Origin: Spirochaetales bacterium
Lineage (GTDB): Bacteria > Spirochaetota > Spirochaetia > DSM-27196 > SLAA01
Assembly (NCBI GenBank): GCA_007127105.1
Contig: SLAA01000009.1
Coordinates: 1-55,085, forward strand
Reading direction: 5' to 3'
Length of the DNA stretch: 55,085 nucleotides
A program made the position numbers and the translations under genes. A model generated the notes under the pieces. It did not search any database. It was given only the letters and a program-made list of their open reading frames with translations, and had not been told where the DNA came from. Below are positions 11,875 to 53,679 of this stretch, piece after piece. How positions within the stretch are numbered: position 1 is the first letter of the stretch; each line of letters starts with the position of its first letter.

Positions 11875-12306
11875 GTGTTTTTTTTCGGGCCACTGGCAAT
11901 GCTATTCCCCTTTCTCGTCGTACTCATTATGGTGCGGCTGGCATCGTCATTGTTCTTCCAGGGAGAGCAAGGGCGCCCGCGCGGCTCGTATGATGCACGA
12001 AGAACGCTGTTCCCAGAGTATTACCAGAGGCTTGGTAGCAGTAGCACGGACTCACAAGCACGGGTGTTTCAGGCAGCCCGTAAACTGGGAGGAAGGCTGA
12101 CGGTTTCGGATGTAGTTATCGAACTCGGTATAGGTATTGAAGAGGCGGAGCAAATGCTCAGTTCAATGGTGGACAGTAGCCGTGTTCGGGTAGATGTGAG
12201 CGAACACGGTTTGCTTGTGTATGACTTCCCGGAGGTCCGCGCCCGCCTGAGTGCCGACCGCGGCGACCAAACAAATCAACAAGGCGGTACAGACCTACGA
12301 AGTTAA
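11875..12306 (+). CDS. Membrane-anchored winged-helix protein of unknown role
   Basis: This 143-residue protein begins with one hydrophobic helix (about residues 2-26, rich in Phe, Leu and Val), then a short linker and a C-terminal domain that looks like a winged helix: ARVFQAARKLGGRLTVSDVV, a second helix with IGIEEAEQMLSSMV, and a final strand HGLLVYDFPEV. Such domains occur in many membrane-anchored bacterial proteins and need not bind DNA. The frame is open back to 11578 inside the kinase gene; I chose GTG 11875 because GAGG lies 6 bases upstream and the helix then forms the N-terminus. It converges on the glnE-like gene, and the two stop codons share the same TTAA at 12303-12306. Confidence 0.65.
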   Translation: MFFFGPLAMLFPFLVVLIMVRLASSLFFQGEQGRPRGSYDARRTLFPEYYQRLGSSSTDSQARVFQAARKLGGRLTVSDVVIELGIGIEEAEQMLSSMVDSSRVRVDVSEHGLLVYDFPEVRARLSADRGDQTNQQGGTDLRS

Positions 12307-15300
12307 GCCTGACCGGGCTTCTGCGGTACCTCTGTGCTCACATCTCTCTCGGCTAAGACTGCTTCATAGATGCTATGCACCTCCTCGGTAATGTGCCGCA
12401 CATAGGATGAGAAGCCTTCGTTGGCGTTCATATCGTTGGATGCACGCAACGCAAGTGCATCTCGTTCTGCACCTTCCGACGGCAGCGTGTGCACCTGCCG
12501 GTCATGAAGAACCTGGAGTAGATGCTCAATACGGCGTAGAAAAATGTAGTGTCGCGACAGTGTGGCGGCTTGGTGCTGGGTTAACAGGTCTTTGGTGGTT
12601 AAGAGCTGTATAGCCTGCAGGGTGTTGCCGGTGTGGAGCTTGTCATCTGCGTGGAGGGCGCGCATTTGGAGAAACTGTACGGCAAACTCAATGTCCCGAA
12701 TGCCGCCAATCCCAGACTTAATATTCCATTCTTCGGGTGGCAACTCCGAGATCGAGGTCTCACGCATGAAGCGAATATTATCTGCCAGTTTCTCGGACAG
12801 TCCCGCCTCCGACATCAGCGGCCGAACCTCATGGAGAAACTCCCAACCAAGTTCAAGATCTCCGGCAACTGGGCGTAGCTTGAGCAGTGCCTGATGCTCC
12901 CATAGACCGGCGGAACTCCGATAGTACCGAAGTAGGGTCTCGCGCCGGTACACAAGCGGCCCGGAGTTACCAAAAGGTCTCAGTCGCAGGTCGACCCTAT
13001 ACAGATAGCCGTCGGCCGTGAAGTCGCTCAGATCCGCTCGTAAACGTTGCATGATTTTGGAAAAAAGGCGCTCCTCACGATCACTGTGGGCATCCGGACC
13101 GCTGCCTTCGGGACGATATACGCCAAGCAGGTCGATGTCGGAGCTATAGTTCAACTCGCGTCCGCCAAGCTTGCCGAATGCAAGGACCACAAAATCCTTA
13201 CTGCGGTTTTGCTCGGCAGGGGGTCGTTCGAGCCAAATCGCATCCAACAAAAAGGCCAGGAGGGTATCGGCTAAATTTGAGAGATCGCGACAAACGTCCG
13301 ACAACTCAGCATGCAAACAGATGTCACGTGTACCAATTCGCAGAATTTCGCGCCTGCGAAAGACACGCGTCAGGCGTAGCCGTTCAGCATGGTCCGCCGC
13401 AGCGGCGGTGAGCTGATCTAAATCCGCCTTAAGTTGCTTTCGCGATCGGGTTACCCCTACCAGGGCCGGATCGGTAACGTAGTCAAAAAAGCTGGGATTT
13501 CGAATCAGCGTGTCCGCCAGGAACTGGCTGCCTGCAAAGATCGAGACCAGAATCTCTAGTCGTTTCGGCTGTTGCAGCAGACGGTCAAAGTGATCCTTCG
13601 GTGATGCGGTCTGCGAAACAAAGCGCTCCCAGTTGTTGAGGGCCATATCTGGATCGGGACAGTGTTGAAGCGTGTCCCAAGCAAGGATCGAGAGCGTCGC
13701 AAATGCGTAGCGTTGGTCATCGCTACCCGATAGCGCGTCGAGGTTTGCGAGCGCTCGCGTTTCGTCCTTGAAGTTTGCCTGGTTCAGAACCTTCAGGTAC
13801 CGTTCGCGCGCCGGGGGAGGGGTAAGTATGAGATCAGCAACGGTACCTACCGCGTCTCGGGGAAGAAGGCGCCCTTCGAGCTGGCTTTCTACAAAGGAGC
13901 GCACCGTAGCCGTCTTGGTCTCAAAATCCAGATGGAGCCGGCGTGCCGCACTAAGTTCTTCGCCAGGGCTGTATCCGCAACGGCCCGCTAGGTGGGCGTA
14001 CTCGGGCGAGTCAACGACTGGAAGGAACAAGTCGCGTGCGTTGCCACGCAGCATTCGCAGTCCGTTGATCACGGTTCGGAGAAACCTATATGCGCTAATG
14101 AGGTGTTCGGCCTCGGTCGCGCTGATTGTCCCAGTATCACTGAGAATACGTAGTGCAGCATGTATTCCGGGCTGACGGAGGTCGGGATTAGAGCGTCCGT
14201 AGCGGATCTGCAGAATCTGGACACTGTATTCCAGGTCAACCAGGCCGCCGGGACTAAATTTTGCGTTCAATCGCCCAGGTTCGGATTTTTCTTGAATTTG
14301 CAGATGTCTCAGGTCGGCTATTTCGCCAAGATCTATGCTCTCACCAGCATACACCAGGTCGTCACGCAGGCGTAGCACCTGCCGCCCCAGGGCCTGGTCG
14401 CCACAGAGAAATCGCATGCGTACCAGTGCAAGTTTCTCATAGCTGTGAGCCTCGTTACGATAGTAGGTAAGAAACTGCGCCAGACTTGCCGCAATAGGGC
14501 CAGCATTGCCATGTGGACGCAGCCTAAGATCTATCTGAAAAATACCTTCACGCTTGGCTTGAATGCAGGAGACGGCCTCACTAAAGAACCGAACAAAGAA
14601 CTCGGTGTTCTCAATCGGGTCGGCGCCATCGGTACGTCCTACATCGCTGTAGACAAAAAGAAGTTCAATATCAGAGGCGTAGCCGAGGGCTTCTCCTCCC
14701 ATTTTTCCAAGTCCAAAAACCGCGTAGGGTACCTGAATCCCGGCCACGGTGCGTGGAACTCCGTATCTTTGTCGCAGCTCATGCCACGCAAGCTCCAGCG
14801 CGGATTCCACGACCAGTTCCGCCAATGCAGTGAGGCGTGAACTCAGAAAAAAGAAGTCAAGATCCTTGCGCAATATGTGATCAAGGTCTATGCGATAGTT
14901 CTCCTGATCCTTAAATCGGTTAAGCGCTTTCACCTTTGTCTTGTAGTCGTGTGCCTCGTCCAGTTTGGCCTTGAGTTCGAATGCGAGTTGGGAGGGGTCG
15001 GTACTGTACATCCGCGTGTCCGAGTCACCCGCCAGAAGGGGGATAAGATTCTCGGACTGGAGCCGCAAAAAGTCCTCCCACAGATAGTCGCTGGCCCCCA
15101 ACAACCGGGCTAAATCGGCCAACACCTTGTCGTTGAGCAACAAGGGCTTAAGGTTGCCTCGTCTATGCGATTCAAGGACATCGGTGAGAAGAGTCTCGAA
15201 ACGGAGAAGCGCGGTGTAAGGGTCAGGGGCGTGATCCAAAAAGAAGGTGAACTGCTTGGTGAAGAGCGCCGACAGCTTAAGGTGATCAAGCAACTCGCGA

Positions 15301-16226
15301 TCCAGTGCCTCTCCGTTCGGACGAGCGAGCAAGAAACGGTCTTCTATTCGTTGACCGTGTGTGTGTATTTCAACACGTTCAACCGAGACATCGTGAAGTA
15401 CGAATGCCGTACTCAAGGCATAGAGAAAAAACGGGGTATCCTCGGAGACAATGCGCAGCTGCGTTCCACCTTCTGCAGAGCGATGATCGGTGACCTCTAT
15501 AGGATTCAGAGCGGCATGCTCCGGAACTCGCGTTCGAGCAATAGCCTCAGCGACCATGGAGTTAACCCGTTTCTTCACTTCGTCAAACTGTGATCCCTGT
15601 GCAATTTGATTATAGAGATGAGTAAACTCCTTCGTAAGCTTCTCTTCGAACTCGGCCGCGGTATAGCCTTCCAGATGCCCTCTAAAGGTATCAAGAATGA
15701 TCCGTCTGGACTTCTGCTCGTCCATAACCGCAAAGCCTCCACCATAACTGCGGCGGCGAAGGCGACGACGCTTTTCATGAACAGTTTCAGGTTCGTCTGG
15801 GGTCGCAGAAGGACCGTACTCCACCGATGTATGGATTTCACCAGAGCTAATGTTTAGCCCAAAGGCCCCGAGTAAGCCACAGAGCAGCGAGAACTCACCA
15901 GGATAATCGTACGCGACAATTGTGACCTCATACAGTGCCTGCCGTTTGTCTTCATCGTTGTCATCGTTTTCGCCGCCGTGATCATGTGCCTGGTTCTCAT
16001 CTGCCGTATAGGAACCGCTAAACGCATCAGTTGCCGTGACATTGACACATGGCTTGAGACTCGTGAGAAAGCATCCAAGCAATCGACATCGGAGGCGATG
16101 GTCGTTGTAGGTGAAGGATCGATAGTAGTAGTCGGGGAATGCACTGAGATAGAATTGCAGGTGCTCAGCTGCTATGTCAGGCTCATCTCTATGGAGACGA
16201 CTCAGGTCAGGGTTTGTAAGTTCCAC
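12303..16226 (-). CDS. glnE: GlnE-like glutamine synthetase adenylyltransferase with GlnD-like ACT N-terminus
   Basis: GlnE adenylylates and deadenylylates glutamine synthetase. This protein has 1307 residues against 946 in E. coli. Residues 1-95 resemble the region ahead of the GlnD ACT domains, followed by two ACT-like segments at about 99-135 (VTIVAYDYPGEFSLLCGLLG) and 257-300 (RVEIHTHGQRIEDRFLLA). The first nucleotidyltransferase domain (GLGKMGGEALGYASDIE at 505-521) resembles the C-terminal, adenylylating half of E. coli GlnE. The second (FGKLGGRELNYSSDID at 1017-1032, later LRRIEHLLQ and HTLPS) resembles the N-terminal, deadenylylating half. The order therefore looks swapped. The first site reads SDIE where SDxD is usual. 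The GTG start lies 20 bases after a terminator T-tract and has no clear ribosome site, so the start is uncertain. Confidence 0.88.
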   Translation of the reverse strand: MELTNPDLSRLHRDEPDIAAEHLQFYLSAFPDYYYRSFTYNDHRLRCRLLGCFLTSLKPCVNVTATDAFSGSYTADENQAHDHGGENDDNDEDKRQALYEVTIVAYDYPGEFSLLCGLLGAFGLNISSGEIHTSVEYGPSATPDEPETVHEKRRRLRRRSYGGGFAVMDEQKSRRIILDTFRGHLEGYTAAEFEEKLTKEFTHLYNQIAQGSQFDEVKKRVNSMVAEAIARTRVPEHAALNPIEVTDHRSAEGGTQLRIVSEDTPFFLYALSTAFVLHDVSVERVEIHTHGQRIEDRFLLARPNGEALDRELLDHLKLSALFTKQFTFFLDHAPDPYTALLRFETLLTDVLESHRRGNLKPLLLNDKVLADLARLLGASDYLWEDFLRLQSENLIPLLAGDSDTRMYSTDPSQLAFELKAKLDEAHDYKTKVKALNRFKDQENYRIDLDHILRKDLDFFFLSSRLTALAELVVESALELAWHELRQRYGVPRTVAGIQVPYAVFGLGKMGGEALGYASDIELLFVYSDVGRTDGADPIENTEFFVRFFSEAVSCIQAKREGIFQIDLRLRPHGNAGPIAASLAQFLTYYRNEAHSYEKLALVRMRFLCGDQALGRQVLRLRDDLVYAGESIDLGEIADLRHLQIQEKSEPGRLNAKFSPGGLVDLEYSVQILQIRYGRSNPDLRQPGIHAALRILSDTGTISATEAEHLISAYRFLRTVINGLRMLRGNARDLFLPVVDSPEYAHLAGRCGYSPGEELSAARRLHLDFETKTATVRSFVESQLEGRLLPRDAVGTVADLILTPPPARERYLKVLNQANFKDETRALANLDALSGSDDQRYAFATLSILAWDTLQHCPDPDMALNNWERFVSQTASPKDHFDRLLQQPKRLEILVSIFAGSQFLADTLIRNPSFFDYVTDPALVGVTRSRKQLKADLDQLTAAAADHAERLRLTRVFRRREILRIGTRDICLHAELSDVCRDLSNLADTLLAFLLDAIWLERPPAEQNRSKDFVVLAFGKLGGRELNYSSDIDLLGVYRPEGSGPDAHSDREERLFSKIMQRLRADLSDFTADGYLYRVDLRLRPFGNSGPLVYRRETLLRYYRSSAGLWEHQALLKLRPVAGDLELGWEFLHEVRPLMSEAGLSEKLADNIRFMRETSISELPPEEWNIKSGIGGIRDIEFAVQFLQMRALHADDKLHTGNTLQAIQLLTTKDLLTQHQAATLSRHYIFLRRIEHLLQVLHDRQVHTLPSEGAERDALALRASNDMNANEGFSSYVRHITEEVHSIYEAVLAERDVSTEVPQKPGQA

Positions 16227-16319: not shown

Positions 16320-16661
16320 TTACCCGATCGCGTCCGTTCCTTTTTCTCCGCTTCGGATGCGAATCACATCGTCTAGCGGCATGACAAATATCTTTCCGTC
16401 GCCAATCTCGCCGGTACGAGCGCCACGAATGATCGCGTCGATAGTGGGTTGAACGAAATCAGGATTCACTGCAATTTCCAGGCGAGTCTTCTTCAGAAGA
16501 TTTACCTCAATCTCGACCCCACGGTACGACTCGCTGTACCCCTTTTGCTGTCCACATCCCATTGCGTTTGTGACCGACATCTTAAAGATTCCGGACTTGT
16601 ACAACTCTTCCTTCACCTCGTTCAGCTTATGCGGCTGAATGTATGCAATAATCAATTTCAT
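16320..16661 (-). CDS. glnB: PII nitrogen regulatory protein lacking the T-loop tyrosine
   Basis: PII proteins are trimers that sense ATP/ADP and 2-oxoglutarate and bind AmtB and other targets. The 113 residues align without gaps to E. coli GlnB through the T-loop, with [17 protein letters not shown] at 37-53 and the C-terminal signature [11 protein letters not shown]. Lys40, Gly41, Tyr46 and Arg47 are kept. Position 51, the uridylylated Tyr in enterobacteria, is Ile, and position 49, the Ser phosphorylated in cyanobacteria, is Val. It therefore has neither known T-loop modification site. It sits 18 bases after amtB, the standard pairing, and is followed by a strong terminator. I use the symbol glnB, but glnK would fit the context equally well. 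Confidence 0.95.
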
Positions 16662-16679: not shown

Positions 16680-18023
16680 TTACATGTTGCTGAAGATCTG
16701 GAATCCACTGTAGGACTCCATTCCGTGCTCGCTAATATCCAGTCCCATAAGCTCTTCGGTTTCACTCACACGGAGCTTCTTAGCAGCCTTGAGTACACTA
16801 AAGAGTGCAAAGGCTGTTCCCATGGTCCAAGCCATTACCGCTACGACACCAATTAACTGTATCACGAGCTGACCAACTCCACCGCCAAAAAACAAACCCA
16901 CTACGTCGGGATCATTGACGCCGTTCGCAAAGAGCCCGACTGCCAGGGTTCCCCAGATGCCGCATACGCCGTGCACCGAAACCGCACCAACCGGATCATC
17001 TACGTGGAGCACCTTATCAATGAACTCAACCGAAGCAACTACCAGAATACCACCCAGGAAGCCGGTCAATATGGACATTCCCGCACCTATAACCCAGGTA
17101 CCGGCGGTGATACTGACCAAACCGGCAAGCGCACCGTTGAGTGCCATACTTGGGTCAGGCTTGCCAAACCACTTCCAGGAGGTGAACATTGCACCAACGG
17201 CTCCTGCTGCAGCAGCCAGCGTAGTTGTTACGGCCACATGCGCTATGTCAAGATCGGTACCCGACAAGGTGCTACCACCGTTAAATCCGTACCAACCAAA
17301 CCACAGGATGAATACACCCAATGCGGCAAGCGGGATGTTATGACCAGGAATTGCCTTAACCGAGACCTTGCCACCCACCTTGGTATACTTGCCACGCCGG
17401 GCGCCAATGACTACCGCACCTGCAAACGCGGCCCATGCGCCAACCGAGTGAACGACGGTTGAACCGGCAAAGTCGTGAAAACCCATTTCGCCAAGCCAGC
17501 CGCCGTCGGCCCAGATCCAGTGCCCGGAAATGGGGTAGATCAACGCGGTAATAACCACACTGTACATGAGATAACCTGCGAACTGTGTTCGCTCGGCCAT
17601 AGCACCAGATACGATGGTTGCAGCGGTAGCTGCGAACACTACCTGAAACATCCAGTCGCGATACAGAATATAGTCTGCACCGGCCAGGAAGAACTCGCTG
17701 CCGCCGATAAAACCACCAACAGAAACGCCGTACATGAGCGCCCAACCAACTGCCCAGTAGGCTATCGCGCCAACCGAGAAATCCATGAGGTTTTTCATGA
17801 TAATATTGCCTGCGTTTTTTGCTCTGGTGAGACCCATCTCCACCATTGCGAAACCCGCCTGCATAAAAAATACCAATGCCGCTGCAACGATCAGCCAAAT
17901 CATGTCAAAGGCTTCGCTGTACAACGCAAGGGTTTCCTCGATCGCCATCTCCTGAGCAAAGGCGCTTCCGCCTCCTAACAGCAGGCCAATAACGACCATA
18001 ACCGGAACCACTGTCTTTTTCAT
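16680..18023 (-). CDS. amtB: Ammonium transporter AmtB
   Basis: AmtB is a trimeric inner-membrane channel for ammonium. The 447 residues begin with a cleavable signal peptide ending SAFAQ, as in E. coli AmtB, followed by about eleven transmembrane helices. Recognisable family blocks are [20 protein letters not shown], the helix with [20 protein letters not shown] containing the first conserved pore histidine region, [12 protein letters not shown] and [14 protein letters not shown] with the second. The start is preceded by GAGGAGG. A consensus sigma-54 promoter lies 43 bases upstream and the PII gene follows 18 bases downstream, so AmtB and PII should be induced together under nitrogen limitation, with PII blocking the channel when nitrogen returns. 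Confidence 0.97.
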
Positions 18024-18282: not shown

Positions 18283-18303
18283 AGGGCGCGCTATCCGCGC
18301 CCT
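18283..18303 (-). terminator. GC-rich hairpin at the end of the sigma-54 activator gene
   Basis: The arms AGGGCGCG and CGCGCCCT form an 8-bp stem with a 5-base loop and overlap the stop codon of the activator gene. No U-tract follows on either strand, so termination is doubtful; it may protect the mRNA end or limit read-through into the amtB control region. Confidence 0.35.
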
Positions 18304-19853
18304 TTGTAGTGTCGGGGATCAATATCATGCTTGTTAACGCGAAGTCCCATGACTCGTTCGGTGACCCCCAGGAGCCTTGCCGCCTTCGCCATGTTGCCCT
18401 TGGTCGACTTTAGCGCATCTAGCAGCAACTCACGTTCTATGTTGTTGAGCGACTCATCAAGTGTCCCGCGCAGGCGCGTGTCGGTTGACTCGGCAGATTG
18501 AAGAGTCGGTGGTAAATGATGGGAATGAATGACTTCATCTACCGAAAGCAAGACCGCGCGCTCAATGCAGTTTTCCAACTCACGGACATTTCCTGGCCAG
18601 TGGTAGTTCATGAGGAGGTCAATAGCAGGAGTAGAGATCCGGCGAATGGCCCGGTGGTTCTGGGCAGCATATTTATCAATAAAGTGGTCGGAAAGCAGCA
18701 AGATGTCGCTCTTGCGATCTCGCAGGGGAGGTATATGAATGGGGAATACGTTGAGGCGGTAGTAGAGATCCTCACGAAAGGTGTTGGTTTCCATGAGCTG
18801 TTCCAGGTTTCGGTTGGTGGCCGCAATCACTCGCACATTCGTTCGCACGGTTTCGTTACCACCAACGCGTTCAAACTCGCGCTCCTGCAGCACCCGAAGC
18901 AGCTTGATTTGGGTAGCGGGCGAAAGATCACCGATCTCATCCAAGAAGATTGTACCGCCGTTAGCCGACTCAAAGCGTCCTTTGCGGCTGGAGATAGCTC
19001 CGGTGAAGGATCCTTTTTCGTGTCCAAACAACTCGCTCTCGATAATGGTTTCGGGTAGAGCCGCGCAGTTGACCTTTATGAACGGCTTGGTTTCGCGAAG
19101 TGAATTATAGTGAATTGCATGCGCAACTAACTCTTTGCCGGTTCCGCTTTCGCCCCGTATCAACACGGTGGCCTCACTCTTGGACACCTGGGCAATCATG
19201 TCAAAGACGTTCTGCATCGCCTTAGACTTGCCAATTATGTTCGTTGGTTGGAACTTGGCCCGCAGTTCCTCCTGCAGGCGAGTATTCTCCCGCAGCAGTT
19301 GTTCCCGCTCTTCCATTACGCTCTGGCGTATCTTCACGGCTTGTGCAATGAGCGAAGCCGCCACCGACAGCACCCGCACATCATCTCGCAGGGCAGACTC
19401 CCCAGCAAACTCACGGTCAATGCTGAATGCGCCGATCGTCTCGTTGCCAATCTTTATGGGCACACAGATAAAAGAGATATCCTGATACTGCTTGGTCTTT
19501 CGTGCTCCAGTTCGGTTAAGAAACTCAGGATCATCGGCTATGCGGGGTATGATGGAGGCTGTACCGGTTTCAACTACTCTGCCGGTTACCCCTTCGCCCA
19601 AGCGGTAGCGTCCCTTTTGTCGTTGCGGTTCCGAAAGACCATACGCAGCCTCTATCGAGATATCGCCAGTGCGCCGATTCAAAAGGGTTATAGTGCCCCT
19701 CAACATACCTAAATGGTCTGTCACGGCCTTCAGAACCGGCTGCAACACCTGTTTAATATCCAGGCTCTGATCCAACAGCTGGCTAATCTCAAAGAGCAGT
19801 GAGAGCTCTTCAAACTTGCCACGATACTCTACCTCACTCGGCGAATCAGGCAT
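18291..19853 (-). CDS. NifA-type sigma-54-dependent transcriptional activator
   Basis: This 520-residue protein is an enhancer-binding activator: an N-terminal GAF domain (about 15-165), a short coiled linker, an AAA+ domain (about 200-430) and a C-terminal Fis-type helix-turn-helix ([20 protein letters not shown]). Walker A is [13 protein letters not shown], Walker [10 protein letters not shown], and the sigma-54-contacting loop reads GSFTGA in place of GAFTGA. The layout and the ending of the HTH resemble NifA, but the NifA interdomain cysteine motif is absent and no nif gene is nearby. It lies directly upstream of a sigma-54 promoter for amtB, so it is probably the local nitrogen activator, with the GAF domain sensing a metabolite or PII. 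GGAG lies 8 bases before the ATG at 19853; a GTG one codon upstream is possible. Confidence 0.92.
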
Positions 19854-19938
19854 CACCTACACTCCAGCGATTCTCTGTCATGGCGCTAATGTACACAAGA
19901 ACGCCTTGAATGACAATCAGCCCTACCAAAAGGTCGGG

Positions 19939-27036: not shown

Positions 27037-29148
27037 TCAGGGTTCATGACTTGCTGGTAAGGCTGGTAAGGGCAGGCGGAAGCGAGTTAGAGTTGCTGGG
27101 TATTGAGCATCTGGCTGCGTTCGCTCGGAAACCAGAACAAGGTAGTCCTCGGGTACCGCTCCAGCGGAGAGTAGGAACTGTTGGTTCGGGGTAATTGCCG
27201 CCCAGGCTCGGTCGCGAAAAAGATACAGTGTGAGCAGCTTCTCTGCCTTACTTGCCGAGTAGAAGGAAACCGCGCCACTGCGGTGAATTGTGTACACCAG
27301 ATCGCCATAGACGCCAAGATCCACATAGAACTCATCTCCAGAATCCACAGCAAGCTTGCCCGAGTGGTTCCATACCTGAATGCGACCAGTTGCGGGTAAT
27401 GCCCATATCGTGTCGGTGCCAGGCACGGCAGCAAGTCGCGCGCTCCAGTCCGCGCCAAGAGTCCTATAGAGGTTCTCATGAACCGAGAAGCCGGGGCCAC
27501 TCCACCGATCCAGTCGTGTGTAGAGCATTCCCGATGTGCTCTGCTCTAGGCCGAGGGCGTAGAGGGATCCTGTTTCGTCCGAGAAAACAATGTCGGTGGT
27601 GATAAATGCCGGAGTTGCAAGAGGTACCGTCTCTCCGGTACTGGGATCTATATGTACCAAGGTCCGTCCTGAACCGGCGGCGGAGTTGGTCCCAATTGAG
27701 AGTCCATGTACCGGATGATATGCGTACGCGGAAATCTCCGATGCGCTGTGGGTGTACTCAACCATGCCCAAGGCTGGATCCCAGAGCAGAACCTGGCCAG
27801 CCTCGGTTTCTATGAGAATGCGGTCCATTGCGACCTGATGCCCAACAATAGCGCTATCGAAATCGTACAGGGAAGCTGAAATTGTGGAATCTTGCTCAGT
27901 CCTGAGCTGATACAGATGTGGTTTCGGGAGGTCGGTACGTCTGAACCATAGTTTTCCTAGGAGTGCTCCATGAACTGTATACTCACCCTCGGGCGGAAAA
28001 CTGAGGAAGCTCTCGGAGAGGCTGCGCAAAGAAAGTCCAAGATCAGTAGTTGAAGCCGAAACCAAGCCGGAGAACTGTAGAAATGTATCATCTGCCTGAA
28101 GATACAGTTGCCCCCCGGAGTATGCAATTCCGTTAACCGGAAGTCGTCGATCTGAGGAGAGTATTCGTGGATAGCGGCTTTGCGCAAAGTAGTAACTGAG
28201 CGTACCGTCCTTGGAGGCAACCAGAGACTTGCCATCGAAGAACGCTACGAGAACCGGTGGACGGTTGAGTTCACGTAGCAGTTGTTCTCTTTCCTGCAGT
28301 CGATTCTCGTGTATGTACCAGGTGCGATAGTAATAGCGGCCGTTTTGCTGGTGAACAACAGCTATGTCGGAGTTACGTTCATTTACCGCGATGGAGCGAA
28401 TACTGGGAATACCAACACGGTCAAGAACACCGCCGCGAAGTATGTCTACCAGAAGGAGGTCGGAGCCACGTTGAGCTACCGAGAGTCGCCTGTTTGGCAG
28501 AATAGTCAAGTTCTCTAAGTGCGACTCGGAGTTCACGGTCTGGAGTACGCGCCCGTCTTCAATGTTGTAGTATGTGAAGCGCCCGTTGCCGGGTGTGTAG
28601 GCCATAAGCGTCGCTTCAGAACCCGACACCGTGAAGTAGCTCGCTATACCGGTCCGCTGTACGCCATGATCAAGCACCTCTCCAGTCTCTGGCGAGACAA
28701 TGACTACGCTGTTGAGGCTCTCAATAGTGAAAACCAGGAAGCTACCATTTGGCGAGTAGGCCATGCTGAGCGGCTCTGTCTGCAACTCGGTGCGGAAAAC
28801 CTTTCTTCCTGTATCCCAGTTCCAAACCGAGAGTACCGGCCGTGATGAACCGGAGTTTTCTATAACTGCGGCATGGGGGAGGCTGGGGTGCAGTGTTAAG
28901 TGACTCAAGGCGCGTGGAGATACGCTGTGCACTCGCAGGAGACTGGGTCGTACCGTGCTCCATACGCGAATAGAGCCATCTTCACCGGCTGTAACGACTC
29001 GATCTTGGTTCGGCGCGTGGACAACCGAGCGCACCTCACCCCAGTGCCCTGTGGTAGGGTACAAAAGATCTTGCTCGGAGAGTCCGTCAGCGCTCTGCGG
29101 AACTCCCAGGAGAATGAAGAACAGAGCAAGAATTGCGAAGCATTTCAC
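27037..29148 (-). CDS. Exported beta-propeller (WD40-like) protein
   Basis: This 703-residue protein has a signal peptide (KCFAILALFFILLGVPQSADG) and then WD40-like repeats: VRSVVHAPNQDRVVTAGEDG followed by SIRVWS, then VLSVWNWDTGRKV, SPETGEVLDHG and others across the whole length. It may form one large or two propellers in the periplasm or on the surface. There is no lipobox or membrane anchor. It starts 14 bases after rseP, so it is the last gene of the rpsB-rseP operon. It may be a scaffold for envelope work done by its neighbours, but its function is unknown. The start is a GTG with AAGGA about 10 bases upstream. Confidence 0.75.
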   Translation of the reverse strand: MKCFAILALFFILLGVPQSADGLSEQDLLYPTTGHWGEVRSVVHAPNQDRVVTAGEDGSIRVWSTVRPSLLRVHSVSPRALSHLTLHPSLPHAAVIENSGSSRPVLSVWNWDTGRKVFRTELQTEPLSMAYSPNGSFLVFTIESLNSVVIVSPETGEVLDHGVQRTGIASYFTVSGSEATLMAYTPGNGRFTYYNIEDGRVLQTVNSESHLENLTILPNRRLSVAQRGSDLLLVDILRGGVLDRVGIPSIRSIAVNERNSDIAVVHQQNGRYYYRTWYIHENRLQEREQLLRELNRPPVLVAFFDGKSLVASKDGTLSYYFAQSRYPRILSSDRRLPVNGIAYSGGQLYLQADDTFLQFSGLVSASTTDLGLSLRSLSESFLSFPPEGEYTVHGALLGKLWFRRTDLPKPHLYQLRTEQDSTISASLYDFDSAIVGHQVAMDRILIETEAGQVLLWDPALGMVEYTHSASEISAYAYHPVHGLSIGTNSAAGSGRTLVHIDPSTGETVPLATPAFITTDIVFSDETGSLYALGLEQSTSGMLYTRLDRWSGPGFSVHENLYRTLGADWSARLAAVPGTDTIWALPATGRIQVWNHSGKLAVDSGDEFYVDLGVYGDLVYTIHRSGAVSFYSASKAEKLLTLYLFRDRAWAAITPNQQFLLSAGAVPEDYLVLVSERTQPDAQYPATLTRFRLPLPALPASHEP

Positions 29149-45846: not shown

Positions 45847-46003
45847 GCAGGTTCAGGCTAAATATATCATTGTCGGAGATAACGATCCAGTTACCTATAC
45901 AATCCCGTAGTTATTATCGGTAGATTCACAGCAGAATGTATTTCTGCCGAGATTTAAAGTACAATTGAAGAAGAAACAAGTTGGCCACACGGGAGTCCGG
46001 AGA

Positions 46004-49000
46004 GTGTCCCGAGCCGAATGGGCAAAAAGAAGCAAGTATCGCCTCGTTCTCTTTTCTGGATTTTTGTTACTCCAGATCGTGGGGGTCCTGTCTGCACCGC
46101 AGTGGAGTTTCGCTCGTGGAACTCGTGAGGACCCTATCGACGAGGCAAGAAGCCTTATCGACGCAAGGCGTCACAACGATGCCATGCTTATTCTACAGGA
46201 AATAGTGCGGCGCCAACCTGAACGGATAGATGAAGTTGAGAAACTTCTTCGCGAGATTCGTGGATTCCGCACCGAGTACAACCAACTCTTCTCTGAACTC
46301 CTGCTGCACATCTCAACGAACCCCGAGGATCTTGAGCGTACATTTGCCCTCATCTCCGCAATGGAGGCCTTGGACGAGCATCCTAACCCGCGAGTGCGGG
46401 AGCAGATCGCGCAGTCACGCATCATAGCACAACTCGCCTATGACCGGCGCATTGCCGAACGTTTACGCAGCGAGGCTCGTGCACTCATTGCAGAAAACCG
46501 TCATGACGAGGCTGCACAGCGTTATCTTGAGGGTTTTGCGCTGCAACAACCGGAGTTTGAGGGCCGGGGATACAGCGATATTTTCCAGAACGAAGTGCGG
46601 CAGATTCGGGGCGAAACACGCAGTCTTGTAGCCCAGTTCGTACAGTTGCGAACGGACTTTTTGCGTACGGGCGAGGACTTGGCAACTGCTTTGACGACCC
46701 CAACCGTCCCGGGCGAACGCAGCAGGTTGTACGCTACATGGATAGACGAAGCGGCTCGGATACAAAACCTGGAGGAGGAGCTTCGGGGACTTTCTGAACG
46801 ATTGATTGTGGCACGCGACTCGGTGGAACTGGAGTTTCCGGAGGATCCTATTGACTGGCACCTCAATATTCTCCGGTTTATGCTCGGTGAGACAGTGCAT
46901 GACACTGAACGAGACGGAATATACGGCGCATTTGCACGTCAAATTGATGACTACGTCTACGCGACGACGGCCGCTGTACGCGAGCATGTATCCAACCTTA
47001 ATCAGGAGGCCGATACCGCGCTCATTGAGGGCAGACTCGGTCGAGCTCAGTCTGAGTATGAAAATATTGCGGAAATCACCGAGTATGGGACCCGACTTGT
47101 GTTTGTGGCATCACGGGTTGAGCCGGTTGATATACCAGAACCGAACCTTGCCGCCGAGCTTATCAGAGAACACGGTCGCAACGAGTTTGCTTTGAGTTTT
47201 TCTGAGTACAGCCGAGCCGCCGAACGCGCCCAGGCGGTTGGTGCACTCACTGCGGCTCGGCAACATCTTGAACTTGCACCTGTTCAGGATCCTGCCTTGG
47301 ACTGGGAACGTAGAGCGGAGCTCCAGAGTTCGCGCGTGAGTTTTAGCAATACCCTCGGCCGTTGGAGCAGCACCGCGATTGCGCTGGAAAATAACTTTGA
47401 TCTCCCACCTGAGCTCGATGAGTACCAGCGTGCTACGGCACAGCTTCACAGCGAGCTGCTGCAGGAGCTGCGAGACTCGGAACTGAGTTGGATGTTTAAC
47501 CTGGTCGAGGAGTCGTATGCCGCCATAGAAGAGCCATACCTGGGACTCTTGGCATCGGTGGAGGAGGGCGAGACCCTCCTGTCCGGTATCCCCTTAGAAG
47601 GACAGGTCATTGAGGACGACGATGACCAGATTCTGGCTCGATACCCTGATCGTGCGCTTGATGTCTTAGTTCCGACTGAACTGAGCATGACGGCGCTCGA
47701 AGAGCGCTTGCTTGGGTACCTGGAGGCCTACGCGGATGAGCCCGATTTCATTCGGCAAGACCTCACTTTTGAGGAGCGTGTACGAGAACACGAACTTCTC
47801 TTGGCACGGCTTCGGGCCACACAGCTACAGGTCGCTTCTCTCATCGAGACATCCGAGACCGATATTGTTCGTGCGGCTGAACTGAACCAGGAAGGAGAGG
47901 CTCTTATTTCGCAGACAGAAGGCGCTATTCAGCAGCTTAGGGTTCCTGCGGCTCAGTCGCTTTGGAATGAGGCACGAGATCGTTTCTATGACTCACTCGC
48001 CCTACAAGAGAACAATGCCATAAGGGCACGCGTCGAGGATCTCGCTGTGTCTCTTGGTGCTCGGATACAGGACGCGGCAAACGAACTTGTGGTACAAAGA
48101 GTACGCGAATTGATAGATGATGCAGAAGATCTCTACAACCGAGAGGAATTCCTGACGGCACAAGAAATGCTGAATGAGGCAAGCGAACTGTGGGCTCAAA
48201 CCAACGTTGAGGACAACATCGAAATAACACGTCTAACACGACTGGTGAACGCCGCGCTAACTTTTGAGAATGAACGCTCAATTGTGGAAACGGACCCGCT
48301 CTTTCCCGTGCTTGGCAGCTATCTCAGTCTCGCGCAGGACGACTTTAGCCGTGCTCGCACGCTGGTTTCCCAAGGGAGTCACCAGCAGGCCCAAGCGCAT
48401 TTGGCACGGAGTGAGCAGAATCTGGAGAACGTTATCGCTCTGCGCCCCTTCAACTGGGAGGCCAAGGTGCTGATCCTTCGGATAGAGGAGCTCCGGGATA
48501 CCGATAATTTTGACGCAATTTTTGAGCGCCGCTTTAACGAAGTGGTAGAAAACCGAAGACCGGACAACGCGCTCGAAACCTTGTCCGACCTGCAGGTACT
48601 CAAGGAGATAAAGCCGAACTACCCCGGTATCGACCGACTGATTGCAGAGTTGGAGATTGAGTTGGGGCTACGCCCGGATCCAGTCACTCAGGCGCGCGCA
48701 CAACGCTCCAACCAGCTGTATCGTCAAGCAACTCAAGTGGCTGGTGGCGGTATTGCACAGGACCGCGCTGCAATAGGTCTGCTTGAAGAGGCTGTTTCGC
48801 TGAACCCGGGCAATAGAGATGCGCGATTACTGCTTGACACCCTGCGTATTCGCACCGGCGGGCAGGCAACGGTGGCGCTTTCATCTACAGATGAACAACA
48901 GTTCCGTCGTGCCGAGCAACTGTTTATTCAAGGCAGCGTCGCGCAGGCTTTCGGCATTGTTGAACGTCTCTTACAGGATGAGTCTAATCAGGGATATCCA

Positions 49001-49048
49001 CCACTGCTCGATTTACGACGGCGCATAACCTCGCGCTTGGGTGTGTAA
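46004..49048 (+). CDS. Large exported repeat-rich helical protein (TPR-like)
   Basis: This protein of 1014 residues has a hydrophobic N-terminus (RLVLFSGFLLLQIVGVLSAPQWSFA) that is a signal peptide or anchor, then a long helical body rich in Glu, Arg and Leu. Several TPR-like repeats show ARSLIDARRHNDAMLILQEI near the N-terminus, DAEDLYNREEFLTAQEMLNEA in the middle and AEQLFIQGSVAQAFGIVERL at the end. I know no function. I place the start at GTG 46004 because GGGAG lies 8 bases upstream; an earlier TTG at 45965 has no such site. Its stop overlaps the next ATG by one base (TAATG), so the receptor downstream is translationally coupled and the two probably form a complex in the periplasm. Confidence 0.75.
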   Translation: MSRAEWAKRSKYRLVLFSGFLLLQIVGVLSAPQWSFARGTREDPIDEARSLIDARRHNDAMLILQEIVRRQPERIDEVEKLLREIRGFRTEYNQLFSELLLHISTNPEDLERTFALISAMEALDEHPNPRVREQIAQSRIIAQLAYDRRIAERLRSEARALIAENRHDEAAQRYLEGFALQQPEFEGRGYSDIFQNEVRQIRGETRSLVAQFVQLRTDFLRTGEDLATALTTPTVPGERSRLYATWIDEAARIQNLEEELRGLSERLIVARDSVELEFPEDPIDWHLNILRFMLGETVHDTERDGIYGAFARQIDDYVYATTAAVREHVSNLNQEADTALIEGRLGRAQSEYENIAEITEYGTRLVFVASRVEPVDIPEPNLAAELIREHGRNEFALSFSEYSRAAERAQAVGALTAARQHLELAPVQDPALDWERRAELQSSRVSFSNTLGRWSSTAIALENNFDLPPELDEYQRATAQLHSELLQELRDSELSWMFNLVEESYAAIEEPYLGLLASVEEGETLLSGIPLEGQVIEDDDDQILARYPDRALDVLVPTELSMTALEERLLGYLEAYADEPDFIRQDLTFEERVREHELLLARLRATQLQVASLIETSETDIVRAAELNQEGEALISQTEGAIQQLRVPAAQSLWNEARDRFYDSLALQENNAIRARVEDLAVSLGARIQDAANELVVQRVRELIDDAEDLYNREEFLTAQEMLNEASELWAQTNVEDNIEITRLTRLVNAALTFENERSIVETDPLFPVLGSYLSLAQDDFSRARTLVSQGSHQQAQAHLARSEQNLENVIALRPFNWEAKVLILRIEELRDTDNFDAIFERRFNEVVENRRPDNALETLSDLQVLKEIKPNYPGIDRLIAELEIELGLRPDPVTQARAQRSNQLYRQATQVAGGGIAQDRAAIGLLEEAVSLNPGNRDARLLLDTLRIRTGGQATVALSSTDEQQFRRAEQLFIQGSVAQAFGIVERLLQDESNQGYPPLLDLRRRITSRLGV

Positions 49049-52000
49049 TGCGATATCGGTTGCGAACTTTGCTACTAAGTCTGGTGCTTCTCTGCGCTGG
49101 CCTTTTGCTCTATGGGCAGGAGCCTTTGTTCTTTGAGGCCCCGCGCGTCATTTCCACCGACAACGCCCGTTTTCCGGAGGTTGTAAACGACAACAACCGG
49201 GCCTTGGTCTTTTACCAGGAGGTGGTCCGGAGTAATGCCCAAGAGGGCCAGATCTACATTTCTGCAATGCAGAGCAACGACGGACGTTCATGGTTTCCAC
49301 GTCGACGCGTGATTGGCCCCATTGAGTTCCAGCGCGAAAGCGCCCCCCTCGTTTTTTCTGCCGAAATCACTCCCAATGGAGATGTGTTTCTTGCCGTCGC
49401 TGCCGAAGCGACCGCAATTCACCTCTACAGAAGTACCGACGCTGGCATTAACTTCAACCGAGTCGCGACACTCGAGTCCGACACAACGGTCGTCTCACCA
49501 CGCCTAAGTGTACGTGCAGACGGCGGAATGCTTTTATTCGTCAGTCAGAATATTGGTGCCGTGCAGAGTATTCTGTATAGCTATTCCTCGCCCGACGGCT
49601 CATGGAGCGAGTTCTTCACACTGGAGGACGATCCCCAACTGGGATTAAACTTTCTCCCAAGTCATACAGGCTACAACGGTAGAGACTATGTTGTTTTCCA
49701 AGGAATTAATCCCGCACAGCGTATCACCTATCAGCTTTACTCCAAGTACAGCGACGACGGTGGGCGTAGCTGGAGTCCGGCCCGACGCATAACTACCTTT
49801 CACAGTGAAGGCGAGGCTCAGAACGCAGACGCCTATGACAACCAGCGTGTACACCTGGAGCGGATCCCGGAGGGCGTCGCTATTGCTTGGGAGCGTCGGC
49901 TAAGCGGTACAAACACCCAAATTTTCTACTCCACGCTCAATGAACAGGGCCTCTTGAGCAACGAAGGTGAGGCGGTTACGAGCCGCCTCACCAACGACAG
50001 TTTCCCTCGAATTCTCGTGCATCGAAATGAGGTCATCCTAAGCTGGTTCGATAGTCCTCAAGGAAACAGCCGGGTGTACATAGCGCGTCGTGACGGTGCG
50101 TTCTGGCAGGGACGTGTCGTGAGCCAGGGGATTTCGGTCTCGCGATTCGGACGCCCCTTTAGTTTTCGTGGACGTATGCACATGTTTTGGCAAGGACGAC
50201 GTACCGCGGACGCGACGAATCTGGTCTATTTGGAACCGGACCAACATGTTGATCCTCCGCGTCCGGTGGCCCGAAACTTTCCGGCAGGTGGGCGGTCTCG
50301 CACCTCCCGCATGGATGTAGCTTGGACGCCTGCTCCAGATGCCTCAGGGATCCGAGCCTACAACTATGTGGTAAGTCAAAACCCTAATGCTCCGGTGGCG
50401 CGTATCCCACGGTATAACGCCTCGGTGCAGGAGGCCTCTGTTACGGTAGATCAAGATGGCGACTGGTTTTTCCGCATCGTAGCGCAGGACAACGCGGGCA
50501 ACTGGAGCGAACCTGCAACCATTTCATACACCCGCGTAACGCGGCCTCCGGATCCGCCCTCCTTTGCAGATGTCCCAATGGATGAAGGCAATTTTCTCCT
50601 CAGCAATACCTTTCGAATTAACTGGCAACCTCAGGAAGACGAGTCGGTGATTGCCGGTTACTCTGTTCGTTTGCAACGAATAGGCCCGGTCGGACTTCCA
50701 ATAGATGATCCCGAGCAGCTTCGCCTTGTGCCACCACCGCCCTCGGTTAACGCTCGTGAGCCGCTTATCTCACGCACAAATGTGGATAACGGCACATGGG
50801 CACTTCAGGTTGCGGCGATTGACGATGTCGGCAATGTAGGCGAACCAGAGACACTGATATTCCGCACCAATAGATACATTCCGGTCACCGAGATTTGGAA
50901 CGTTTCGACGACTCGCGATCGCCTGGGTAGGTATGCTCTGAGCGTTACTGGACGGGGTTTCACGGCTGACGGCACCATAAGCGAGGTTGTTCTGGACCGC
51001 ACCGGAGAGCCTCCGTACGACTATGTCTTCCGTTCCGCTCAGGACGCCTTCTCGGTTCTCAGTAACGGTCGTATTGAGGGCCCCCTTATAGACCTTGTGG
51101 AAACCGGAGCATATCGAGTTGGGCTGGTTCATACGAACCGCGGGGTTCGCTTCAGCTCTACGACCGTGCAGCTGGAAGAGGCTGGTACGGTCACCTTTGG
51201 TGACTTCTCTGGTCGATATATCCCAAGCTATTTGCGGCGTGAGAGCGCACAGCGGCTCATCCCAATTGAGACTTTACTGGGCAGCCTTGCTGCGTTGTTA
51301 GTCGCGTTCGTTGTCGTGGTGTCGGGAACTCGCATGGCCTCTCTGGCTGCCGAAGGTCGGCTGCTGGATTTGGAGGTTAAGGCGCTCATTACCGGCACCT
51401 CTCTACCGCCCCAAAAGAAGAAGGAGATACTACGCGCGATGAAACTAAACATTTGGGGACTGCGTTTTAAGTTTGCGGTTTTTGTGGTAGTTCTAGTTGT
51501 AGCCGTTGTGGTCATGGTAGCGTACTTCCTCGGTTCCGCGGCGCTTGAAAGACAAGAAGATATCCTTGCGCGTGGACTGGAACAACGGGTTGAGGTTCTT
51601 CTGGACAGCCTAGTGACCCAGTCATCACAGCTTCTGGATGCGCCGCAACAGAACACCATTGAACTGGCTGGACTTACCCGCCAGTCCGGGATCATGGATG
51701 AGGTTCAATACATAACGATAACTGGCTCAGGTTCTGCTGCAGCAGATTTTGACCATATCTGGGCGACAAACGACCCAGTTATTCTTGAGTATGGCACTGA
51801 GGACTCGGAAGCCGCTCCGGGGCGAGCTATTCGGCCGGACTTGAGTACCGAAATCTATCAACCGGCCGGTGGGTCAAGGATCATTGACGTCATTAGTGAC
51901 GAGGTACCTGAGCTTGAGGCACAGATCAACGAACGGGCGCGGGCGGAGCTGGGAAATATCCCGGAGCAGATTGACCAGTTTACAGACCGTATTAGTGAAC

Positions 52001-53679
52001 TCGTTCTTATTGGCACTCCACAAGCAGAGGCCGAACTAGAAGAGATTGACCGAACACGTCAGGAGCTTGAGGGGCGGGTAGCAGATGTGCTTGCAGCAAT
52101 TGGCGATGCCTTCTTTAGCTATCCTGAGTTTGACTCATCGAACCTCAGCCGTGAGAATACCGAGTACCTGTTCTACAAACCGGTACTGTTCCGGGCGGTA
52201 GGCGAGTCCGGTCCGGACGCTCGCTATTTCCGTGGCATGGTACGAATGGGGGTTTCGACCGAGCTGATTCTTGAGGACATTGCGGAGGCCACTCGCGAGT
52301 TAATTATCACAACAGTGTTCGTTGCGGCGGCCGCGTTGCTCGCTGGTATCATTGGTGCCTTTCTGCTCGCAACCATTGTTGTAATCCCAATTAAGCGGCT
52401 CGTCGCCGGTGTGGAAGTCATCCGTGACACTGAGGACAAGGCCCAGCTCGAACATCATTCCATAAAAGTCACCTCGCGTGACGAACTGGCCGCCTTGGCG
52501 AACACCATTAACTCAATGACTCACGGTTTGGTGGAGGCGGCAAAAGCGAACAAAGACCTTACCCTCGGTAAGGAGGTTCAAAAGCGCTTCATTCCGCTTG
52601 AACCAGCGGCTAACGGAGAAAAGCAAACGACCGGCGCCACCGATCTACCCCAGATCGAGTTCTTTGGGTACTACGAAGGGGCAAAGGGCGTGTCTGGTGA
52701 CTACTATGATTATCAGAAGCTGGACGATGAGCATTTTGCCATTATCAAGTGTGATATCGCAGGCAAGGGTGTTGCTGCTTCACTGATTATGGTTGAGGTT
52801 GCAACAATTTTCTTAGACCACTTCAAGAACTGGAAACTGAAGCCATCTGGACTCAAACTTGAGCCCCTCGTTATCCGAATAAACGACCTCATTGCGGAAC
52901 GAGGATTCCAGGGCCGATTCGCAGCCTTTACAGTTGGTATCCTTAACATTGAGACCGGAAAAATTGTGTTAGCCAATGCTGGTGATAATCAACTGCATCT
53001 GTACCGAGCCCAAAAGGGGACGACCGAACAGTTAAGTATGGACAAAACCCCAGCCGCCGGTGTGTTTTCCAGCGACGACATGCCAATACGCTTTCCGGAG
53101 TACTATTTGACGCTCGAAACCAATGACGTGCTGGTGTTTTTCACTGACGGAATTGAGGAGTCAAAACGGGTGTTTCGTGATGAAAACGAGAACCTGTATA
53201 CCATTACCGAGTCAGATGTGGAGAGCAAGCGTGTTCGCGCTGACATCCTGCCGGGCCAGGGAGATGAAGAGTTTGGTATTCCGCGTATCCATGAAATTCT
53301 TGACGCCGTCGGACACAAGAGACCCTATAGGTTGTCCCAAGAGCTTTCAGATGAGCAGCTGGACTTTGCCTTTGACCAGTGTCCCTATACGGCACGAGAT
53401 TTCACTATGGCACTGGTGGCGGTTGAGAAAATATTCCGCTGCTACAAGCCAAAAAACCCCGGCAAGGACGACGTCGTTAAGATAGATAAAGTCGTTGACG
53501 ACTACCTGGCCAAGTATTTTGCACAGTACGCGCAGTATTTTGGCGCTAAGGTGAGCACCGAGGGTGGTCAGGACCGGGCAGTCGCACTGAGAGAGGACGC
53601 CTTTTATCGTTACTATAGTGCTCTGCAGGAAGATGAACAGTATGATGATCTAACGGTGTTGATGATTCGTAAGAAGTGA
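49048..53679 (+). CDS. Receptor PP2C phosphatase with beta-propeller ectodomain
   Basis: This 1543-residue protein begins with a signal peptide (LLLSLVLLCAGLLLYGQ). Residues 25-410 form a sialidase-like beta-propeller with Asp-box repeats such as SNDGRSWFP and YSDDGGRSWSP. Residues 415-625 look like two fibronectin/Ig-like domains, and 630-720 like an IPT-type domain. A helix at about 740-760, a second at 808-830, an external sensor region of about 250 residues, a third helix near 1084-1110, and a HAMP domain follow. From about 1185 to the end is a PP2C/SpoIIE phosphatase: GDYYDY, KCDIAGKGVAASLIM, FFTDGIEES and a final DDLTVLM. The region between DG and DDLT is about 170 residues, far longer than usual. 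Its target, perhaps an anti-sigma antagonist, is not in the window. Confidence 0.85.
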   Translation: MRYRLRTLLLSLVLLCAGLLLYGQEPLFFEAPRVISTDNARFPEVVNDNNRALVFYQEVVRSNAQEGQIYISAMQSNDGRSWFPRRRVIGPIEFQRESAPLVFSAEITPNGDVFLAVAAEATAIHLYRSTDAGINFNRVATLESDTTVVSPRLSVRADGGMLLFVSQNIGAVQSILYSYSSPDGSWSEFFTLEDDPQLGLNFLPSHTGYNGRDYVVFQGINPAQRITYQLYSKYSDDGGRSWSPARRITTFHSEGEAQNADAYDNQRVHLERIPEGVAIAWERRLSGTNTQIFYSTLNEQGLLSNEGEAVTSRLTNDSFPRILVHRNEVILSWFDSPQGNSRVYIARRDGAFWQGRVVSQGISVSRFGRPFSFRGRMHMFWQGRRTADATNLVYLEPDQHVDPPRPVARNFPAGGRSRTSRMDVAWTPAPDASGIRAYNYVVSQNPNAPVARIPRYNASVQEASVTVDQDGDWFFRIVAQDNAGNWSEPATISYTRVTRPPDPPSFADVPMDEGNFLLSNTFRINWQPQEDESVIAGYSVRLQRIGPVGLPIDDPEQLRLVPPPPSVNAREPLISRTNVDNGTWALQVAAIDDVGNVGEPETLIFRTNRYIPVTEIWNVSTTRDRLGRYALSVTGRGFTADGTISEVVLDRTGEPPYDYVFRSAQDAFSVLSNGRIEGPLIDLVETGAYRVGLVHTNRGVRFSSTTVQLEEAGTVTFGDFSGRYIPSYLRRESAQRLIPIETLLGSLAALLVAFVVVVSGTRMASLAAEGRLLDLEVKALITGTSLPPQKKKEILRAMKLNIWGLRFKFAVFVVVLVVAVVVMVAYFLGSAALERQEDILARGLEQRVEVLLDSLVTQSSQLLDAPQQNTIELAGLTRQSGIMDEVQYITITGSGSAAADFDHIWATNDPVILEYGTEDSEAAPGRAIRPDLSTEIYQPAGGSRIIDVISDEVPELEAQINERARAELGNIPEQIDQFTDRISELVLIGTPQAEAELEEIDRTRQELEGRVADVLAAIGDAFFSYPEFDSSNLSRENTEYLFYKPVLFRAVGESGPDARYFRGMVRMGVSTELILEDIAEATRELIITTVFVAAAALLAGIIGAFLLATIVVIPIKRLVAGVEVIRDTEDKAQLEHHSIKVTSRDELAALANTINSMTHGLVEAAKANKDLTLGKEVQKRFIPLEPAANGEKQTTGATDLPQIEFFGYYEGAKGVSGDYYDYQKLDDEHFAIIKCDIAGKGVAASLIMVEVATIFLDHFKNWKLKPSGLKLEPLVIRINDLIAERGFQGRFAAFTVGILNIETGKIVLANAGDNQLHLYRAQKGTTEQLSMDKTPAAGVFSSDDMPIRFPEYYLTLETNDVLVFFTDGIEESKRVFRDENENLYTITESDVESKRVRADILPGQGDEEFGIPRIHEILDAVGHKRPYRLSQELSDEQLDFAFDQCPYTARDFTMALVAVEKIFRCYKPKNPGKDDVVKIDKVVDDYLAKYFAQYAQYFGAKVSTEGGQDRAVALREDAFYRYYSALQEDEQYDDLTVLMIRKK

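Follow-up and report, generated by a model that had tools for sequence, protein, structure and literature searches.

How does a bacterium set the adenylylation of glutamine synthetase (GS) when its GlnE-like enzyme appears to carry a piece of GlnD? The question is raised by a 55,085-nucleotide stretch of DNA (hereafter, the window; GenBank contig SLAA01000009.1) from a Spirochaetales bacterium whose genome, G000, is a metagenome-assembled genome (MAG) of 264 contigs that is 90% complete. In E. coli, the C-terminal half of GlnE adenylylates GS and the N-terminal half de-adenylylates it; PII favors the first activity and PII-UMP the second (PMC12409994). E. coli GlnE is itself also allosterically regulated by glutamine (PMC5448240). 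GlnD senses glutamine, probably by means of its ACT domains (PMC3173338; PMC4285133). An initial annotation of the window had proposed a GlnE-like protein with a GlnD-like N-terminus, exchanged catalytic halves, and no need for PII-UMP, so that the roles of GlnD and GlnE would be merged.

Domain composition and range of the protein

The gene occupies positions 12303..16226 of the window on the minus strand and is an open frame of 1307 aa with a GTG start. The start is supported by relatives, which conserve both P6 and the helices of the N-terminus. The two nucleotidyltransferase domains noticed at first were recovered by Pfam, which gives two GlnE matches (PF03710, 2.8e-104) and two GlnD_UR_UTase matches (PF08335); the Pfam ACT match is weak and sub-threshold (residues 256-303). 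All three NCBIfam GlnE models score below their cut-offs (487 bits with a cut-off of 625, 467.5 with 487, and 403.6 with 724), and the NCBIfam GlnD model TIGR01693 matches only residues 92-318 (E 8.8e-16, 57.3 bits with a cut-off of 519). Judged by its sequence, the protein is a bifunctional GS adenylyltransferase/adenylyl-remover, with predicted catalysis, of a variant type that reads [GlnD sensor tail]-[adenylylating (AT) half]-[adenylyl-removing (AR) half]. We call it ACT-GlnE.

A scan of genome contigs revealed 116 relatives, 80 of which were kept. With few exceptions these are full-length, at about 1200-1380 aa, and 78 full-length sequences were aligned. They come from Spirochaetota, Verrucomicrobiota/Lentisphaerota/Kiritimatiellia, some Desulfobacterota (Deltaproteobacteria-type MAGs), and several candidate phyla; an isolate, Alkalispirochaeta alkalica, and genomes assembled in one contig are among the sources. 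In G149, the closest genome, GlnE is 92% identical to the window protein. ACT-GlnE is a real and widespread GlnE variant, and its anatomy is well supported. A search of open-access PMC literature found no paper on a GlnE with ACT domains or reversed half order, and as far as this search shows the variant is undescribed.

Residues 14-321 (15264..16187, minus strand) correspond to the C-terminal tail module of GlnD, which comprises both ACT domains, their linker, and the helices that follow the HD domain. We compared an alignment of 72 ACT-GlnE N-termini with the GlnD proteins fetched using HHalign. The match covers GlnD positions 670-906, which hold these elements (233 columns, probability 99.6, E 1.9e-23). 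The ACT part alone gives E 6.1e-21, and profile comparison found nothing convincing in the remainder of GlnD. At the level of profiles this shows the N-terminus to be homologous to the GlnD tail, as the initial annotation had suggested. The insert between the ACT domains (residues 187-236, window 15519-15668) resembles the GlnD segment just after the HD domain in a second HHalign alignment (E 1.7e-7), which hints at an internal rearrangement of the tail.

The AlphaFold2 (AF2) model of residues 1-335 (pLDDT 85.5, pTM 0.84) has ACT-type strand-helix patterns at residues 98-185 (ACT1, 15672..15935, minus strand) and 255-327 (ACT2, 15246..15464, minus strand). ACT1 is interrupted by an insert: strand-helix-strand at 98-133 is followed by the insert after the second strand, and the arrangement resumes at 176-185. 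The ACT-like segments expected at about 99-135 and 257-300 are therefore well placed, the model having ACT1 from residue 98 and ACT2 at 255-301, and the first 320 residues do contain the ACT pattern. Pfam ACT matches occur in 53 of 72 relatives. Conserved residues are D107, G117, G129, and T133 in ACT1 and D263, T264, P265, F267, T289, and D296 in ACT2; the acid that starts the ACT loop, T at the ends of strand 2, and several residues of ACT2 hardly vary across many phyla. The glycine of the beta1-alpha1 ligand loop is kept in 34/77 relatives in ACT1, where the window protein has it, and in about 2/78 in ACT2, where the window protein has Phe. By this glycine the pair does not qualify as an ACT amino-acid sensor.

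The best Foldseek PDB match of the N-terminal model is the large mycobacterial NAD-glutamate dehydrogenase (NAD-GDH, 180 kDa), which also gives a weak HMMER match (E 0.012). We rejected an origin of the N-terminus from this enzyme: a profile comparison with eight GDHs gives E 0.0045, far weaker than the 1.9e-23 for GlnD, which is thus the closer kin.

GlnD, PII and the control of the enzyme

ACT-GlnE lies among other minus-strand genes in the window. These encode a NifA-like sigma-54 activator with GAF-AAA-Fis composition (18291..19856; TIGR01817, 569.9 bits, over the cut-off), the ammonium transporter AmtB (16680..18023, identified with Pfam/NCBIfam), and a GlnK-like PII protein (16320..16661, found by domain search and alignment). 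Codon 51 of PII (16509..16511, minus strand) encodes Ile in the T-loop in place of the Tyr that is uridylylated. Three other frames of the window may be mentioned: a very large one of 1543 aa that combines BNR-like repeats with a SpoIIE phosphatase (49048-53679, plus strand); an adjoining 1027-aa frame with no Pfam match at 1e-6 (45965-49048, plus strand); and a 703-aa protein with WD40-type beta-propeller matches beside an M50 protease frame (27037-29148).

The 90% complete MAG of the window has no full-length GlnD match. Control of GlnE by GlnD through PII-UMP requires both glnD and Tyr51 of PII. Since the genome has no glnD and the neighboring PII has no Tyr51, such control is very unlikely in this organism, in line with the initial proposal that PII-UMP is not needed.

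Presence of GlnD, scored at E <= 1e-30, was counted in even samples of three phyla, including the center genomes. The architecture of GlnE was assigned with HMMs for most ACT members and three long canonical frames, and otherwise from frame length and domain spacing. Among Spirochaetota, GlnD is present in 0/8 genomes with ACT-GlnE versus 5/8 with canonical GlnE (G011, with a fragmentary GlnE, and G070, with a sub-threshold GlnE match, are omitted). The corresponding numbers are 3/5 versus 51/53 in the Desulfobacterota-type sample and 1/11 versus 11/11 in the Verrucomicrobiota-type sample. Pooled, they amount to 4 of 24 ACT-GlnE versus 67 of 72 canonical-GlnE genomes (Fisher 2e-12, not corrected for kinship). 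Three genomes of one spirochaete genus (G039, G044, and G064, about 1.8 Mb each) have no GlnD and a GlnE of canonical length whose second-domain match is weak or absent, possibly a degenerate AT half.

The sampled genomes with both ACT-GlnE and GlnD include G274, G332, and G458. Among 50 ACT-GlnE genomes (49 relative loci and G000), nine have full GlnD, and all nine are titled Deltaproteobacteria, Desulfobacterales, or Desulfatiglandales. As several Desulfobacterota thus have ACT-GlnE alongside full GlnD, and any PII fetched from them has Tyr51, ACT-GlnE is not simply a GlnD replacement and is not tied to GlnD loss. In the fetched PIIs of glnD-less genomes position 51 is mostly I/V/T/S/L/E, and in those of glnD-bearing genomes it is Tyr. 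Four PIIs depart from this pattern: L177 and L178 carry a WRGxEY loop, and L196 and L206 are divergent.

The reading that we favor, with moderate confidence, is that a GlnE of the form [GlnD tail]-AT-AR is a direct glutamine sensor with no need of PII-UMP. The ACT pair would bind glutamine, or a nitrogen signal close to it, and act on the directly joined AT half. High glutamine would switch AT on, leading to adenylylation of the conserved GS tyrosine; at low glutamine AR would be favored, and GS would be released by phosphorolysis. No PII-UMP would be made in these cells because GlnD is missing and PII lacks Tyr51, and the unmodified PII encoded in the cluster with ACT-GlnE may add a 2-oxoglutarate or energy signal. 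Direct glutamine control of ACT-GlnE is likely on this evidence. That the ACT pair binds glutamine is an inference, and the poor retention of the ligand-loop glycine is the weak point of this step. The presence of full GlnD in some ACT-GlnE genomes also counts against direct sensing.

The enzyme may be the same, with the same exchange of halves, and yet be controlled by unmodified PII responding to 2-oxoglutarate and ATP/ADP, the ACT pair being structural, serving dimerization, or binding another amino acid. The poorly kept glycine would be explained in this way, and the amtB-glnK-glnE cluster of the window and its nearest relatives is consistent with it; many PII proteins are unmodified and still regulate their targets (PMC4285133). 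However, PII lies within 3 kb of ACT-GlnE in only 6/81 loci, 5 of the 34 glnD-less ACT-GlnE genomes have no PII match, and the near-invariance of ACT residues over many phyla is more than a spacer needs. We consider PII control possible but unlikely, and prefer direct sensing of glutamine.

Order of the halves and the target of the enzyme

The first nucleotidyltransferase half (about residues 330-790, 13857..15239, minus strand) is AT-like and the second (about residues 822-1294, 12345..13763, minus strand) is AR-like. HMMs specific to each half were built from the canonical AR and AT halves of 11 named species. The first half of the window protein scores 249 bits with the AT HMM versus 210 with the AR HMM; the second scores 310.7 with AR versus 304.5 with AT, a small margin. 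All 78 relatives have a first half that prefers AT, and 72 of them have a second half that prefers AR, again with small margins. Scored separately, then, the first half does not go with AR, nor the second with AT.

Phylogenetic trees separate canonical AR and the second halves from canonical AT and the first halves with support of 100/98, 100/94.7, and 99/95. The AU test of the unswapped arrangement gives p 0.079, 0.042, and 0.034 in the three datasets, and the evidence for the swap from the tree alone is good but not overwhelming. A quick all-inclusive tree agrees with the swap, except that actinobacterial AT halves (the C-terminal ones of Tsukamurella and Nonomuraea GlnE, L175 and L176) fall on the AR side, owing either to a long branch or to a duplication history of their own. 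For this reason the careful trees were run without the actinobacterial halves, as well as without other long branches; their rows were chosen after the first tree had been seen. Counting AR-versus-AT motifs was abandoned as a test: only 9 columns discriminate at 70%, and they are split. The motifs that the initial annotation quoted for the swap thus could not settle it.

Three relatives of 1227-1239 aa (L253, L254, and L272, from genomes G390, G470, and G540) read AR-[GlnD tail]-AT. This form occurs in 3/6 genomes of one order, which belongs to the phylum of L019 and is not the order of the window organism. Their leading half prefers AR over AT by 43-64 bits, the tail lies at about residues 491-802, and the trailing half is best matched by the HMM of window-type first halves (about 376-381 bits). 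In a tree, the trailing halves of L253 and L254 form the sister group to first halves of the window type (100/100). By sequence, AR-[GlnD tail]-AT is a natural circular permutation of [GlnD tail]-AT-AR. Given this sister relation of the half that follows the tail, the tail and AT travel as a unit; this unit, constant in both architectures, behaves as one cassette.

Long-branch attraction in a standard AR-AT GlnE whose halves have diverged would also make the order look reversed. This would fit the AU p of 0.079 in one dataset and the second-half preference for AR of only 6 bits in the window (6/78 relatives prefer AT), both of which also count against the favored reading as a whole, together with the ambiguous motif columns and the actinobacterial halves, which show that the split is not universal. 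It conflicts with three careful trees with bootstrap of 99-100, with the AU values of 0.042 and 0.034, and with the permuted relatives, where the half after the tail is of the window-type first kind (with the sw1 HMM it scores 376 bits and the other half 127) and the leading half prefers AR by the 43-64 bits given above. We regard an unswapped GlnE as quite improbable. Trees, half-specific HMMs, and permuted relatives together show, at the sequence level, that AT precedes AR in ACT-GlnE, as was first proposed.

Both halves keep their catalytic acids. The AT-like half has D519-x-E521 (14664..14672, minus strand) and the third acid D566 (14529-14531); the AR-like half has D1030-x-D1032 (13131..13139, minus strand) and D1079 (12990-12992). 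All six residues are kept in 78/78 relatives. The second acid of the first active site is Glu; a DxE motif agrees with the h-D-h-[DE]-h pattern that is general in the nucleotidyltransferase superfamily. An AF2 model spanning residues 95-1294 (pLDDT 87.7) matches the structures of the two E. coli halves (3k7d and 1v4a).

A GS with a motif of the LDK(D/N)IYDLPPEE type round the adenylylated tyrosine was found for 29/30 relative loci, and glnA lies within 3 kb in 24/81 loci, in nearly every case as the immediate same-strand neighbor of glnE. The 90% complete MAG of the window itself yielded no GS domain, though it encodes a GS modifier. This counts against the favored reading and is probably a gap in the assembly; the near relative G149 has a GS with the adenylylation motif. 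The missing GS and the GlnD tail might suggest a GlnD-like role with PII or another protein as the target instead of GS. This is very improbable, given that PII lacks Tyr51, the GlnD uridylyltransferase (UTase) and HD domains are missing, and a GS with the tyrosine occurs in nearly all relatives, including the nearest, and often with glnA adjacent. The chance that the 1307-aa frame is an assembly or gene-fusion artefact of the 264-contig MAG is negligible: the 78 full-length relatives from independent assemblies, isolate and one-contig genomes among them, exclude a fusion by misassembly.

Comparison with known systems

A GlnD-like ACT pair outside GlnD is known from plant ACR proteins (PMC3173338), which have no nucleotidyltransferase domains; the ACR9 ACT model weakly matches 11/72 ACT-GlnE members. 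The large NAD-GDH resembles ACT-GlnE in its N-terminal ACT region and is a different enzyme. GlnD shares the post-HD helices and tandem ACT domains of its C-terminus; in ACT-GlnE this tail precedes the AT half, and the GlnD-type UTase and HD domains are absent. Since only the sensor tail of GlnD is present, the idea that the roles of GlnD and GlnE are merged in one protein does not hold.

With E. coli-type GlnE, ACT-GlnE shares two nucleotidyltransferase halves with catalytic acids and preceding helical domains, and the genomes of its relatives encode a GS with the modified tyrosine. It differs in having AT first and AR last, in the additional GlnD tail of about 320 residues at the N-terminus, in Asp-x-Glu in the AT-like half, and in falling, in the window, below all the NCBIfam GlnE cut-offs. 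Because E. coli GlnE is already regulated by glutamine, glutamine sensing by GlnE is not new in kind; the new element is the GlnD tail as its carrier.

The bicyclic GlnD-PII-GlnE-GS cascade of E. coli is a textbook case of covalent signalling. A large bacterial group appears instead to run one cycle, with the sensor of the first cycle carried on the enzyme of the second, and the permuted relatives point to the tail with AT as the functional cassette. Belief and doubt are for us evenly balanced on the broadest statement: that the GlnD tail fused to AT, in two permuted forms, is a one-protein nitrogen switch that in many phyla reduces the GlnD-PII-GlnE cascade to a single glutamine-sensing cycle, with loss of GlnD and PII Tyr51. 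The joint loss of GlnD and PII Tyr51 offers a natural experiment for gauging the contribution of the upper cycle.
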